Shown here: piece by piece, positions 150-33,424 of the stretch
Position numbering within the stretch: the first letter of the stretch is position 1
Layout: each line of letters begins with the position of its first letter
NCBI GenBank assembly: GCA_016191145.1
Contig: JACPPD010000010.1
Location: 1 to 64,000, forward strand
Length of the DNA stretch: 64,000 bases
Direction: 5' to 3'
DNA from: Ignavibacteria bacterium
Lineage (GTDB): Bacteria > Bacteroidota > Ignavibacteria > Kapaibacteriales > Kapaibacteriaceae
Translations under genes and position numbers: made by a program
Notes under the pieces: model-generated
What the model saw: only the letters and a program-made list of their open reading frames with translations
Databases searched by the model: none
What the model was told of the DNA's origin: nothing

Positions 150-322
150 GTGCCAGGTGCGAAGGTAACTGGTACGGGGAGATGCCGGGAGAGATATGCT
201 GCCGGGGAAGATGCCGGGAGAGATATGCTGCCGGGGAAGATGCCGGGAGAGATATGCTGCCGGGGAAGATGCCGGGAGAGATATGCTGCCGGGGAAGATC
301 AATCTCAATTGGCACCTGGCAC
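150..322. repeat. 11-bp inverted repeat bracketing the first 29-bp array
   Basis: GTGCCAGGTGC at 150-160 is the exact reverse complement of GCACCTGGCAC at 312-322. Between them lies the four-copy 29-bp array. A further partial copy (GTGCCAGGTAA) lies at 137-147. Similar CCTGGCAC-rich sequence occurs inside a permease gene near 35620, so this is probably a dispersed repeat and not a unique structure. Confidence 0.7.
181..296. repeat. 29-bp tandem repeat array, four perfect copies (locus 1)
   Basis: Four back-to-back identical 29-bp units (181-209, 210-238, 239-267, 268-296) begin GATGCCGGGAGAGATATGCT and end CCGGGGAA. There are no spacers, so it is not a CRISPR array. A variant of the same unit, with GGCATATGC in place of GAGATATGC, forms arrays at 2224-2368 and 29135-29221. 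Because 29 is not a multiple of three, short open frames on both strands are artefacts of the repeat. Confidence 0.95.
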
Positions 323-24611: not shown

Positions 24612-24616
24612 TTCAT

Positions 24617-24868
24617 AGTTCCAGGTTCAGGGTTCAGGGTTCCAGGTTCAGGGTTCAGGGTTCATAGTTCCAGGTTCAGGGTTCAGGGTTCCAGGTTCAG
24701 GGTTCAGGGTTCATGGTTCCAGGTTCAGGGTTCATGGTTCCAGGTTCAGGGTTCAGGGTTCATGGTTCCAGGTTCAGGGTTCAGGGTTCATGGTTCCAGG
24801 TTCAGGGTTCCAGGTTCAGGGTTCAGGGTTCCAGGTTCAGGGTTCATGGTTCCAGGCTTACGGTTCCA
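24617..24868. repeat. Heptanucleotide tandem array, 36 units in perfect register
   Basis: 252 bases consist of 36 consecutive 7-mers of the form GGTTCAG, GGTTCCA or GGTTCAT (with A for the first G in two units, and one degenerate GGCTTAC). The variants follow a higher-order pattern, often CCA-CAG-CAG-CAT. No gene lies in it: the 310 bases between the OmpA-like gene and tRNA-Cys hold only this array and the tRNA promoter. Confidence 0.95.
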
Positions 24869-28628: not shown

Positions 28629-29006
28629 ATGGCCAAAAGGAAAATTGCAAGGGTAACACAGAATATCCTCAAAAAGGATCAGCTAATTGTCAAAGCTGTT
28701 CTGACGTTAAAGGACTACAGCCCTGCAAATTCTGAATTTACAGTAGCCCGTCTGCGAGAGGCACTCAGGAAGATTGAGGAAGTCACGGCAGCAGAGAGGC
28801 GAGCGCTTGATGCCGTAGCAAATGCGAGGGAGGAAGCGATGCGCATCGAGCTGCAGTTTCACGAGCTTGCCATTGGAGCGAAACGTCAGGTAATTGCCCA
28901 ATACGGCGATGAATCCGACGAAATCACATCTCTTGGAATGAAGAAGAAGTCAGAGCGAAAAGTTGGCCGACCGCGCAAGGCAACGAAGGCACAAGGGGGA
29001 ACATAA
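28629..29006 (+). CDS. Small highly charged helical protein, unknown function
   Basis: A 125-residue Lys/Arg/Glu-rich protein. The N-terminal half (MAKRKIARVTQNILKKDQ) is basic, the middle forms a long heptad-like helix (about residues 42-80), and the C-terminus ends in SLGMKKKSERKVGRPRKA, an AT-hook-like GRPRK core. Proteins with a QYG..S.E...LG.KKKSE motif occur as uncharacterised genes in this phylum and cyanobacteria, from memory. DNA binding is a guess from the basic tail. It has its own promoter and terminator. Confidence 0.68.
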   Translation: MAKRKIARVTQNILKKDQLIVKAVLTLKDYSPANSEFTVARLREALRKIEEVTAAERRALDAVANAREEAMRIELQFHELAIGAKRQVIAQYGDESDEITSLGMKKKSERKVGRPRKATKAQGGT

Positions 29007-29093: not shown

Positions 29094-29134
29094 GGATAAC
29101 CTGTAAAAACTGTAGTGTCGGGGTGCTGCAAGGA

Positions 29135-29221
29135 AACATGCCGGGAGGCATATGCTGCCGGGTAACATGCCGGGAGACATATGCTGCCGGGTAACATGCC
29201 GGGAGGCATATGCTGCCGGGT
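29135..29221. repeat. 29-bp tandem repeat array, three copies (locus 3)
   Basis: Three 29-bp units (29135-29163, 29164-29192, 29193-29221) of the same family as locus 2, ending GCTGCCGGGT; the middle copy has GACATATGC in place of GGCATATGC. It lies just past the terminator at 29061-29093. The flank at 29225-29276 is shared with locus 2. Confidence 0.93.
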
Positions 29222-29224
29222 AAC

Positions 29225-29276
29225 GTTTATCAATAGATGTTTTAATTGTTGTATCTCAAGCCATTACGTTTCAGTC
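29225..29276. repeat. Conserved flank shared with the array at 2224
   Basis: This 52-base stretch directly after the three-copy array aligns with 2371-2423, about 81% identical by eye. It marks a composite element consisting of 29-bp units plus a fixed 3' flank. Confidence 0.75.
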
Positions 29277-29312
29277 GCAGATGAACTACGAACTAGTCCC
29301 CACCAAAAAACC

Positions 29313-29495
29313 ATCCCGCTCAATGATCTCCAACATAATGTCACCTTAATATTCAATTCGTAAAGGATGATTATTTTGCATGTGTCCCTGATTCGATGTG
29401 TATTTGTAACTCAGCTCGCCTCTGCTGGCTGATATCGGAAGCACCCTCACCGTTTGGAGAGGGGTTGGGGGTGAGTTGCACGGATTTCACTCCAC
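29313..29495. repeat. Dispersed repeat, copy 1, ending in a GTGAGTTGCA palindrome
   Basis: This ~180-base stretch aligns with 30799-30971: both have CAATGA..CCAACAT, an ATTCAA(T/C)TCGTA segment, GCATGTGT, then TGTAACTCA and finally GGTTGGGGGTGAGTTGCA. The palindromic end (29405-29480) has the inverted termini TGTAACTCA and TGAGTTGCA. It lies upstream of the first Rhs remnant; the 517-base gap from 29007 holds only this, the terminator and the 29-bp array. Confidence 0.7.
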
Positions 29496-29523
29496 TAACC
29501 CCATCTATTACTAACCGATTGAA

Positions 29524-29838
29524 CGCTAGCGCTACAATGTGCTCATTAAGGTAAGGGGCGAACCATTGTTCACCCTGGTGTTTGAAGCGCGGTCGGGCAT
29601 TACTTTTAATGTCCACGGCACAGAATATAGCTGCGATGGTAACGGCAACCTCACAGGGTTTAAGTACTGCGACCAACAAGGCGACGAATTCGATAATTTG
29701 TCGACCACGTATCAATCTTCTCAACGAAACAACCGCTTGCTATGCACCGGCACATATACCGCAACAGCGGCACATCTTAACGATATTGAGGATCAGGGGG
29801 CGAGTACCTTGAGACTCCAAACGACTTTATATGCTTGA
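29524..29838 (+). pseudogene. Rhs/YD-repeat protein remnant (internal fragment)
   Basis: The frame reading GTEYSCDGNGNLTGFKYCDQQGDE, then NNRLLCTGTYTATAAHLNDIEDQG, carries the YxxDxNGNLT motif of YD repeats found in Rhs-family polymorphic toxin proteins. No start or signal sequence is present and a stop interrupts upstream at 29527. A second, C-terminal Rhs fragment lies at 30962-31864, with an HNH nuclease between them. Confidence 0.7.
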
Positions 29839-29897
29839 TTTACCTCTCAATCGTTGCAGATTGGTACGGTATGGTTACTGAAAGTCAAGACAATACA

Positions 29898-30788
29898 ATG
29901 CGCGAAGCACTTTTCCAGCACATGGATAGACTTGTTCTGGAATTTGGGGCATCCTTACCCGCCTTTGTTTTGAAACGACGATTTGTTTTCGAGGATTTCG
30001 GCTTTATGCCGCTGCAACAGAACGGTATTTTTAGACCACAGCCATTACAAGAGGGCGACGCGGCTGTTGTACTATTATCTAGCGTTGATGGACCTTATGA
30101 AGATCGGTCTGATGTGGAAACTGGATATTTTCAGTATCGTTATCAGGGTGGCTCTAAAGACAGGGACAATTGGTATAACCGCGCACTTCGATCGGCGCTT
30201 GAGAAACAGAAACCTGTATTGTATTTATTGGGAATGGGAGCAAACGAATATATGCCCCTTTATCCGTGTTATGTTATTAATGACAATCGTAGTAATGGAT
30301 TCGTCAATCTTCAACTAGTAAATCGATCAGTAGTTCTGACGCCGACTTCTGACGTCGAAGTAACTACTGCCATACGAGCCTATACAACGGTGCTAGCCAA
30401 AAGGAGAGTACACCAGGAGGCTTTCAGGGGACTTGTGTTGAAAGCATATAGTGATACATGCGCAGTTTGTAGCCTTAAAATTAGGAAGCTACTGGATGCC
30501 GCTCACATCATACCAGATGGGGAAGAACGGGGCGATCCAATCGTTCAAAATGGATTGGCATTATGTAAGCTGCATCATGAGGCATACGATTTTAACATTA
30601 TTGGTATTAAGTCTTCTTACGAAGTCGTTGTTTCTGAAAAAACAATGGAACTTGTTGATGGACCGATGTTAACGCACGGTTTAAAGGAAGTACATGGTAA
30701 ACAGTTGATTGTGCCAAGAAGGATTCCAAGTAGACCAGACAGAGAGAGACTTGAAGAGAGATTTCAAAGGTTTCTGCGACAATCATAG
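29898..30788 (+). CDS. HNH endonuclease with N-terminal PUA/SRA-like domain (restriction-like)
   Basis: From ATG 29898, 296 residues. The N-terminal half (GIFRPQPLQEGDAAVVLL, DGPYEDR, YFQYRYQGG, PVLYLLGMG) resembles the domain that precedes HNH in a widespread putative restriction endonuclease family. The HNH part has a CAVC knuckle (188-191), LDAAHIIPD with His203, NGLALCKLHHEAYD (218-231) and the conserved tail DGPMLTHGLKEVHG. These proteins are thought to cut modified or foreign DNA; target unknown. Earlier in-frame starts (29871, 29835) extend the N-terminus. It stands between two Rhs remnants, suggesting insertion. Confidence 0.82.
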   Translation: MREALFQHMDRLVLEFGASLPAFVLKRRFVFEDFGFMPLQQNGIFRPQPLQEGDAAVVLLSSVDGPYEDRSDVETGYFQYRYQGGSKDRDNWYNRALRSALEKQKPVLYLLGMGANEYMPLYPCYVINDNRSNGFVNLQLVNRSVVLTPTSDVEVTTAIRAYTTVLAKRRVHQEAFRGLVLKAYSDTCAVCSLKIRKLLDAAHIIPDGEERGDPIVQNGLALCKLHHEAYDFNIIGIKSSYEVVVSEKTMELVDGPMLTHGLKEVHGKQLIVPRRIPSRPDRERLEERFQRFLRQS

Positions 30789-30798
30789 GGATAGATCT

Positions 30799-30971
30799 GA
30801 TTCCGCCAATGAAGCCCAACATTTCACCACGTTAAAATTCAACTCGTATAGAAAAAATATTTAGCATGTGTGGTTTTCTGTAACTGCATTGTAACTCACT
30901 CCACCCCTGCGGAGTGAGATCCCAAGCCTCTTCTCCGTGAGGAGAGGAGGTTGGGGGTGAGTTGCATAGTT
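30799..30971. repeat. Dispersed repeat, copy 2, ending in a GTGAGTTGCA palindrome
   Basis: The second copy of the ~180-base element at 29313-29495. Its end (30890-30966) forms a long imperfect hairpin: TGTAACTCACTCC...GGGGTGAGTTGCA with the inner CTTCTCCGTGAGGAGAGG palindrome. It directly precedes the second Rhs remnant. Confidence 0.72.
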
Positions 30972-31864
30972 CCGCGTTCAACCACTCCAGTTGCAAGGGT
31001 TCCGCGCGTTCAACCACTCCAGTGGCGTCGGGAACACGCGATGTGCTGCAGCGATTGACGTACGAAGCGTTTGGTGGTGTACGAACCACGAAAGGGGAAG
31101 GGGCACGCACATCGTATATCGGACGTGAAGAGGACAACGAATCTGGTTTGGGCTTCTATGGCGTCAGGCTGTATGAACCGGAGTATGGACGGTTTACGGG
31201 TGTGGATGCTTACCGGGCAGAGTATTTGAATTTCAATCCGTATGAATATTCTTTGAACTCACCTATTGGGCTGTTTGATAACGGAGGAAAGTGGGTTCAG
31301 GGTATGGATGACGTAGCCCGGCTAGCTATCGTAGAATCAGTTCCCATTGAGTTTCAAAGTAAGGTTACATTTGATGCCAATGGCGTCGTGCAACCAGGGC
31401 CATTGCTTGAGGCAGCGGTTGGACAGGACCCAAATTCAAACATCGCAATTCTGAGTAGATTAGCAGAAAACGATCTCACTGTACAAGTGCAAACATCTGA
31501 CACATACGAAACTAAAAATCGTGAAGATGGAAGGACGGAGCTGAGCTCGCTAACAGAGGAATACTCGGCTGGTATTACACTTATCCCGGAGAAGGATGCT
31601 CAGGCAGCGAATCTTCCAGCGGGCATGCCAGTTTCAACGAACGGAACAACACAAATCTATTTACGCCCCGATCTGCCTCAGCAGGGAAAAAATGGCTATC
31701 TGAGTCGAGGTCAGATAGCAGCTCATGAGTTGTTTTCCCATTTCAGATTCTTCATCCTTGCAAAAGCTGGTAAAGCAGAAACTGCAGCTCACCACCTTAG
31801 AGGTCAACCAAAGAATGACGTTGATAAAGCTGCCGATAATGCTGAGAACGGGGCGGACAGATAA
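30962..31864 (+). pseudogene. Rhs core C-terminus with candidate toxin tip (N-terminally truncated)
   Basis: The frame opens inside the palindromic repeat and has no proper N-terminus. Residues about 28-106 carry the Rhs-associated core: TYEAFGGVRTTKG, SYIGREEDNESGLGFYGVRLYEPEYGRFTGVD and NPYEYSLNSPIGLFDNGGKW. The ~190 residues after it are unlike the core and end with IAAHELFSHFRFF and AETAAHHLRGQ, a possible metal-binding His cluster (HExxxH, not classical HExxH). In intact Rhs proteins the tip after the core is a toxin. A lipoprotein gene follows 31 bases later. Confidence 0.72.
30968..31023. repeat. Direct repeat of ~24 bases at the Rhs fragment junction
   Basis: GTTCCGCG followed by TTCAACCACTCCAGT occurs twice, at about 30970 and 31000, the second with an extra CG. 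It sits exactly where the palindromic repeat meets the Rhs core, consistent with a rearrangement scar. Confidence 0.65.
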
Positions 31865-31894
31865 CCAACATGGAAGGAACCTCCTGTGGAATCT

Positions 31895-32644
31895 ATGGTT
31901 GATTTATTCGCGCGCCGAAAGTTTTTGATTATTCTCACCGTCAGTCTTTGCATGTTGGTCTCCTGTACAAAGGAGAACAGAATTCACGATGTCTATGATT
32001 ATTCACATCTTCGGTCTGATTATTTTGTAAGAATTGATTGTCGGGCTAAGTTCAGGCACGACACTCTTATAATTATCGATAATATAACGAACACAAGTGG
32101 CTCTAATCTCATCTTGCTGCCGTCGCTTGCCTTCATTCGTGATCCCGAAAAATCCAGATATATTTTGAATAGATCATCACTTGGAAATGTATTGTACATT
32201 TCACGTGACAGCTTGTTTAATGTGCCATCCCTTTGGGACAGAAGAATTGAATACGATCCGGCATACAAGTATCAGTTCTTCGTATTGCCTTCCGATTCCA
32301 CTGTGGAGTTCGAGTATCGGTTACCTTGTCGGCTGCAACCTCTCAGAGGCTTCTTGGACGCAAAATTCATATCTCCATTCTTCTATTGCGCCTGGTCAAC
32401 CAGCGATACGTTGATGGGGACCCGCAGGGTGGAATACCTTAGAGACAAAAGGGCAGTGTTCACTGTCTTTCACAATGGCTTGAAGACGTTCCCGTATCGG
32501 GATCGATATATTTTTAATATGATGACACAAGAACTCAACGGAATGATGGAAGTAGTTGATGAGGACTATAACAAACTTTTTACATCAAGGATTGGAAGGC
32601 TGCTGGACACCAGCCTACCAAGAGCCATACCAATCACCAGATGA
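31895..32644 (+). CDS. Lipoprotein of unknown function, candidate immunity protein
   Basis: From ATG 31895, 249 residues with a lipoprotein signal peptide (lipobox LVSC, Cys24 in LCMLVSCTKEN). The mature part is predicted mainly beta with no motif I recognise. It follows the Rhs C-terminal fragment, where the immunity gene of a polymorphic toxin normally lies, and a lipoprotein would suit a toxin acting in the periplasm. That role is inference from position only. A GTG at 31886 is an alternative start. Confidence 0.6.
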   Translation: MVDLFARRKFLIILTVSLCMLVSCTKENRIHDVYDYSHLRSDYFVRIDCRAKFRHDTLIIIDNITNTSGSNLILLPSLAFIRDPEKSRYILNRSSLGNVLYISRDSLFNVPSLWDRRIEYDPAYKYQFFVLPSDSTVEFEYRLPCRLQPLRGFLDAKFISPFFYCAWSTSDTLMGTRRVEYLRDKRAVFTVFHNGLKTFPYRDRYIFNMMTQELNGMMEVVDEDYNKLFTSRIGRLLDTSLPRAIPITR

Positions 32645-32790
32645 TTGACCGAATATTCCGTATTAATTAAACAGGGCTGGTCCCTCTGCCAATGACTTTC
32701 TGGACACACTCAGTGTCGATAATAAATCAACTAGTTAGAGTCGAAATGAAACTCTGCGATGACAGAAGAGACGTTCACCCGGAAGTGGAT

Positions 32791-32921
32791 TGCAACTCAA
32801 CTCGCCCCTGCGAAGTCCCCTCTCCACGAGGAGTGGGGGCTGGGGGTGAGTTGCACGGATTTGGAGAGGGGGTTGGGGGTGAGTTGCACGGATTTGGAGA
32901 GGGGACTGGGGGCGAGTTGCA
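32791..32921. repeat. GTGAGTTGCA palindromic element plus 33-bp tandem duplication
   Basis: TGCAACTCAACTCGCCCC at 32791 pairs with GGGGGTGAGTTGCA ending at 32855, enclosing CTCCACGAGGAG. Two further 33-bp units beginning CGGATTTGGAGAGGGG and ending GAGTTGCA follow at 32856-32888 and 32889-32921. The 303-base gap between the lipoprotein and peroxiredoxin genes contains nothing else recognisable. Confidence 0.8.
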
Positions 32922-32947
32922 AAGCAACATGCCCTCCCGCTGAATCC

Positions 32948-33424
32948 CTACGCCTCTACAGCCTCTACGGCAGCAAAGATCTCGTCGTAGTTGGGTTCGA
33001 CGCCAGGCGAAGGCGTTACGTTTACGTATCGGATAATGCCGTCTCGGTCGAGGATGAAGGTAGCCCTCTGACATCGCGTGAAGCCCTGGATGCCGGCAAA
33101 GTTTTCGAATACAATATCGTAAGCTTTGATAGTATCGAGATTCAAATCGGAGAGTAGTGGGAAATTGAGGTTGTTGATTTCCCTGAACATGCGATTCGAG
33201 AAGGGTGTGTCCGGAGAAATGCCAATGACGTCGGCGTCTGCACTGTTGAGTCTGCCAAGTGCATTTTGAAATGCACACACTTCTGCATCGCAGACACCGC
33301 TGAATGCTGCCGGGTAGAATACAAGGATTACATTCCTCCCCCTGTATGCCGATAACGAGATTGGCTCCTTGTTCTGATTGACGAGCGTAAAAACGGGGGC
33401 GAGAGTTCCGGGTGAAAGTGCCAT
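32948..33424 (-). CDS. Peroxiredoxin (AhpC/TSA, AhpE-like)
   Basis: A 158-residue thioredoxin-fold peroxidase with the peroxidatic Cys45 in FYPAAFSGVCDAEVC (a second Cys at 50), GISPDTPFSNRMFREI and the C-terminal ILDRDGIIRYVNV. It reduces hydroperoxides. The usual PxxxTxxC Thr is Ser here, as in the AhpE subgroup. Transcribed away from the DUF2007 gene. Confidence 0.92.
   Translation of the reverse strand: MALSPGTLAPVFTLVNQNKEPISLSAYRGRNVILVFYPAAFSGVCDAEVCAFQNALGRLNSADADVIGISPDTPFSNRMFREINNLNFPLLSDLNLDTIKAYDIVFENFAGIQGFTRCQRATFILDRDGIIRYVNVTPSPGVEPNYDEIFAAVEAVEA

Follow-up and report, generated by a model that had tools for sequence, protein, structure and literature searches.

Orphan rhs-CT/rhsI modules, or silent cassettes, belong to the known layout of Rhs systems, in which PxxxxDPxGL is a boundary motif, according to the accessible part of one account (PMC3150448). 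The Rhs metallopeptidase toxins Tox-MPTase1–5 are listed with an HExxH motif, given as HEELH for MPTase5, in the excerpt available of a second (PMC3482391). The locus described here lies in the window, by which is meant the whole 64,000-nucleotide stretch of contig JACPPD010000010.1 that was analysed, from an Ignavibacteria bacterium whose 2.47-Mb genome comprises 19 contigs with a listed completeness of 99.96%. A preliminary description had read positions 29313–31864 as one Rhs toxin gene split through repeats by an HNH nuclease. Comparison with related genomes removes this false lead and puts in its place a more familiar picture, a variable site that collects Rhs tips, relics, and other cargo. 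In its present form, the site is very probably a mosaic in which an Rhs relic and an orphan Rhs-CT/immunity cassette accompany a nuclease that is stand-alone and unrelated to them.

Setting of the locus

The site is bounded by two genes found across the genus. On the left, a conserved gene for a 125-residue protein (orf125; 28629–29006, plus strand) has matches in four of the five other same-genus genomes, and on the right a bcp-like peroxiredoxin gene (32948–33424, minus strand) has matches in all five. In three relatives (G003, G004, and G005) these genes adjoin one another within a kept order of gcvH, orf158, orf125, and peroxiredoxin, with ~150–170 bp separating the last two, which leaves the site empty there; the corresponding gap in the window measures 3.9 kb. 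The names gcvH and bcp are those that we take to apply to these flanking genes. This synteny extends to a transporter gene that comes next in G004 and G005, and the stretch examined from G003 ended before that position. The left edge of the block is placed at ~29.1 kb because homology to G003 stops at about 29076, and a 29-bp tandem repeat of 3.5 copies (29124–29224) lies close to it. The right edge is occupied by copies of a palindromic repeat (32813–32926, plus strand).

The site coincides with contig ends in G002. G001, the closest relative by its peroxiredoxin (91% identity), has no match to orf125 or to the HNH gene, absences that weigh little because this genome is 80% complete. A 454-aa gene lies beside the peroxiredoxin gene of G001 (contig C82; L076, 5854–7218), and a relative of 82% identity is found on contig C15 of the window's own genome; the neighbourhood has therefore been rearranged between the species. 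Contig C55 of G001 additionally carries a repeat joined to a truncated Rhs core, with 83% identity to window positions 30932–31207. The nucleotide match extends no further than 31207, and a search with the C-terminal domain of the window's second Rhs piece gave no match on that contig. Upstream of this junction are a 158-aa frame and transposase-like frames, as read from the sequence, and no HNH gene. The junction is, in effect, a nuclease-free counterpart of that in the window, bearing another C-terminus. The far end of the same contig also matches, at 84% identity over 51 bases, the end of the window's cassette (32634–32684, plus strand).

Repeat elements

Each Rhs piece in the window is preceded by a copy of a similar plus-strand element, at 29313–29480 and 30800–30966, the second copy running into the Rhs tip at the junction common to G001. 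The copies are identical in 120 of 166 ungapped columns (72%), and their local alignment score of 73 compares with at most 21 for 500 dinucleotide-shuffled versions of copy 1; by this measure, the similarity of the two spacer elements exceeds chance. The preliminary description was right in this respect. The element also occurs beyond these two places, its 3' half being found again at the right edge of the block and genome-wide. This half is a dispersed palindromic repeat: BLAST with 111 bases of copy 2 found 35 matches in the window's own genome, the query included, on eight contigs, with copies partly in tandem. Three copies in the window have folding z-scores of −6.2, −2.1, and −4.2, with 0, 5, and 1 of 200 shuffles, respectively, folding equally well.

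The 5' part is related between the two copies even when taken alone (score 35.5 vs. a shuffle maximum of 22), and its 61 identical columns of 90 are compatible with an old duplication that would link the two pieces. Beyond itself, an own-genome BLAST search with this half (30800–30900) returned only matches at E 0.40 and 0.75; having missed the known copy at 29313, the search also leaves room for other copies. When the 5' halves were scored against 17 loci with 10 shuffles each, a clear excess was obtained for L053 (27.5 vs. 20.5) and L052 (26 vs. 20), and the scores for L049, L060, and a second query on L053 were above the shuffle control by 2 or less. The relative in L053 (788–865, minus strand, on own-genome contig C6) is weak and, like the 5' half in the window, precedes copies of the palindromic repeat. 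A translated-motif scan of the 5' half gave, outside the window copies, only two unrelated-looking matches, both in L037. As far as alignment can tell, then, the duplicated spacer is real, commonplace in its 3' half and unexplained in its 5' half.

Several other repeat arrays were encountered. Thirteen copies of the palindromic motif, on both strands, cluster at positions 1235–2504 of L048 (own-genome contig C15). A second repeat family, built on a 29-bp palindromic unit (CATGCCGGGAGGCATATGCTGCCGG-like), forms tandem arrays at window positions 175–299 and 2222–2370 as well as at the left edge of the block, and has one match on own-genome contig C14. An intergenic tandem array of GTTCCAGGTTCAGG-type units occupies window positions 24612–24856, with periods of 21, 28, and 49. 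Assignment of the palindromic repeat to a RAYT-linked REP family was considered and set low: the four Y1 genes of the genome lie on contigs C2, C3, and C19, the 35 repeat matches (E up to 0.001) are on eight other contigs, and no copy of the motif was found near the two of the four Y1 genes examined.

The hairpin repeats are a genome-wide spacer family, and delivery of the nuclease by them is unsupported. A related possibility, in which no gene was ever split and the repeats instead serve as recombination platforms that shuffle cassettes, the HNH gene among them, into the spacer, draws on the occurrence of repeats between the pieces and at either edge, on the 5' half common to both element copies, and on a repeat/core junction that two species have in common despite different C-termini. 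This possibility is nonetheless an unlikely one, because a repeat so common in the genome makes a chance neighbourhood likely; additionally, no recombination product was seen.

Two Rhs pieces

The first Rhs piece had been given as starting at 29524, a frame that crosses an in-frame stop; its open part spans 29539–29838 on the plus strand. It has no match to an Rhs family model in Pfam or NCBIfam and is recognised only through homology to other Rhs genes, including 79% nucleotide identity between 29680–29803 and an Rhs gene on own-genome contig C14 (L047, 8499–8625). The second piece (30962–31864, plus strand) contains a core that scores 51.5 bits against the NCBIfam model Rhs_assc_core (TIGR03696), for which the cut-off is 32.5. 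Its frame of 300 residues starts inside the repeat and is without the long N-terminal part of the full-length Rhs proteins of relatives, which have 2460–2568 residues.

Two kinds of Rhs core, labelled type A and type B for this analysis, separate the pieces. Seven matches to fragment 1 were found outside the window among 23 family genomes, one of them (G013, L085) in a first search and not recovered by later BLAST. Type A cores, which read NGKENDNEVKG or a slight variant of it, stand beside six of the seven and a type B core beside none, the seventh (G005 C98) having no core in the available flank. The fragment 2 core is 33–38% identical to type A cores and 41–70% identical to type B cores, the latter found in G001, G004, G005 C106, G009, G015, and G022. 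None of seven type B loci holds a match to fragment 1 (best E 0.33), a count in which only two loci, in G004 (2460 aa) and G005 C106 (2568 aa), contribute full-length Rhs genes that might have revealed a counterpart of fragment 1. From these core and fragment comparisons, the two pieces come from different Rhs subfamilies. Rhs cores number only three in the window's own genome; the open frames that contain them have 550, 307, and 632 residues, and none is full-length.

These relationships bear directly on the proposal that a single Rhs gene was split by an inserted HNH cassette. The order of the fragments does fit an Rhs gene, as illustrated by G005 C27, where a part resembling fragment 1 lies ~160 residues upstream of the core, and the two elements are, as noted, related. 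The proposal is very improbable all the same, given the different subfamilies of the fragments, the existence in G001 of the repeat/core junction without an HNH gene, and the outcome of a check for insertion-site duplication, in which 29781–29900 and 30771–31010 shared no exact match of at least 8 bases. With only 72% identity, the element copies do not represent a fresh duplication, and fresh repeat-mediated insertion was set aside on that ground. No transposase match was obtained in the segment ORFs scanned with Pfam. What survives is a recombined toxin locus with an HNH gene flanked by two Rhs-like pieces; the intact type B genes of G004 and G005, and the apparent origin of the fragments from separate loci, largely dispose of the rest.

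The HNH gene

The gene between the pieces (29871–30788, plus strand) encodes a protein of 305 residues, predicted by inspection of the frame to start most likely at ATG 29871, that matches Pfam HNH_2 with 34.2 bits against a cut-off of 21. Some match to it is present in 96 of 395 genomes of the phylum, most of the matches listed covering only the C-terminal HNH part. Near-full-length homologues occur in four genomes of the phylum, with 37–38% identity in that listing and 35.6–36.8% by BLAST, and none of the five other same-genus genomes contains a match. Among plasmids, 74 records match and eight of these cover at least 80% of the query; eight loci on viral contigs all match the C-terminal half. 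The ~170 N-terminal residues are conserved in stand-alone homologues. On this comparative evidence, the gene is intact, as previously described, and stand-alone; it most likely encodes a nuclease of restriction type that is housed at the same site.

A more specific assignment, as a phosphorothioate-DNA restriction enzyme (NF045808), was rejected: the protein reaches 67.1 bits, over its C-terminal part only, against a curated cut-off of 180. COG3440 and HNH are said to appear together in a paper about Haloquadratum. That the protein might be a detached C-terminal toxin of fragment 1, which abuts the HNH segment, is scarcely credible, for although Rhs systems do include HNH toxins, RhsB-CT of Dickeya dadantii being an example in the portion of PMC3150448 at hand, the gene has its own start and the N-terminal conservation just described, and no annotated Rhs gene was present in the two plasmid neighbourhoods examined among the eight with at least 80% coverage.

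The C-terminal domain of fragment 2 and the gene that follows

Within fragment 2, the core (31061–31288) gives way to a C-terminal domain of ~200 residues (31256–31861). At the boundary, the window reads PIGLFDNGGK; compared with PxxxxDPxGL, the spacing agrees, and the P that should follow D and the L that should follow G are not matched. The domain is common to two Rhs tips of G004 (55 and 50% identity), a further tip of G022, and one in G045, and is borne additionally by the full-length Rhs protein of G005 C106. A scan of genome contigs with the domain found three loci, which were again G022 C141, G005 C106, and G045 C23. Fragment 2 matches five plasmid records, none covering 80%. The Rhs domain of G005 C106 is also carried by JAGFIZ010000004.1, a public metagenome-assembled contig titled Bradyrhizobiaceae, a title that looks mislabelled.

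The most conspicuous feature of the domain is the motif HELFSH (31724–31741). AHEL and the following His are invariant in six aligned domains, giving a consensus of HExx[GSA]H, in an alignment from which G009 was omitted for its stop, and G012 and G015 because their matches do not extend to the motif. The G009 domain reads HEYGAH, so that the Leu is not invariant there. The domain has no Pfam match beyond chance-level E-values and no NCBIfam match, and a PDB sequence search with its profile returned nothing below E 0.45. A structure model (mean pLDDT 74.5) resembles zincins weakly, with a best Foldseek E of 0.72 and a best Z of 4.7 (rmsd 4.6 over 114 residues), and it also matches an unrelated fold, peptidyl-tRNA hydrolase, at Z 4.0.

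The gene directly after fragment 2 (31886–32644, plus strand; 252 aa) was absent from the preliminary description. Homologues of ~20% identity directly follow the two G004 tips that have the same C-terminal domain (E 7e-19 and 1e-14 among the collected loci); because of this placement, the gene is probably the immunity gene of fragment 2. Its product has, to judge from the residues, a lipoprotein-like start. The C-terminal domain would then be a toxin to which the neighbouring protein presumably confers immunity. It is possible, if on balance doubtful, that this domain, which recurs in several Kapaibacterium-related genomes, defines a family of Rhs effector peptidases not described before, in which HExx[G/S/A]H would be the zinc site and lipoprotein-like proteins the immunity partners.

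Proposed organization and comparison with known systems

In the favoured reading, that of a variable-site mosaic, ~3.9 kb of Rhs-array material (roughly 29,100–32,940) would separate orf125 from the peroxiredoxin gene. Its first part would be a defunct remnant of a type A Rhs gene; the second, a solitary HNH endonuclease, unrelated and intact, whose probable target is foreign or modified DNA; and the third, an orphan Rhs tip, made up of a type B core and a toxin-like C-terminal domain, together with its presumed immunity gene, a module that might act as a silent cassette. The locus is ordinary overall, and its new item is the uncharacterised C-terminal candidate toxin domain with the HExx[GSA]H motif. 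A literature search found no paper treating Kapabacteria together with Rhs, and the analysis adds comparative data on orphan Rhs cassettes for a little-studied lineage.

Dipeptidyl peptidase III (family M49) has an HEXXGH motif, and the six-residue spacing of the window's motif is like that of this enzyme. The domain has no sequence match to dipeptidyl peptidase III, which is likewise absent from the fold matches listed. The Tox-MPTase1–5 toxins, as far as the listing in PMC3482391 extends, resemble the window's domain in being linked to Rhs and in having a His-Glu-His motif; membership was rejected, as HELFSH has HExxxH spacing and no family match was obtained.

The nuclease resembles a solitary HNH restriction-type endonuclease of Allochromatium vinosum plasmid pALVIN01, with 35% identity over 94% of the query. 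The pALVIN01 gene lies directly before the hsdR, methylase, and specificity genes of an hsdR/M/S set, whereas that of the window lies among Rhs pieces.

A close counterpart of the cassette is the Rhs tip array of G004 (C1:2499417–2515882), in which two tips have the window's C-terminal domain and following gene. Unlike the window, G004 has a 2460-aa Rhs gene and then seven further Rhs cores downstream, a source-like arrangement at another place in the genome. Measured against the orphan rhs-CT/rhsI modules, in so far as the available part of PMC3150448 describes them, the window differs in that its own genome is without a full-length Rhs gene and its module stands alone beside a relic and a nuclease. 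It agrees with them in its truncated Rhs core, variable C-terminus, and small gene next to it, and in that another genome carries its C-terminal domain as part of a full-length Rhs protein.
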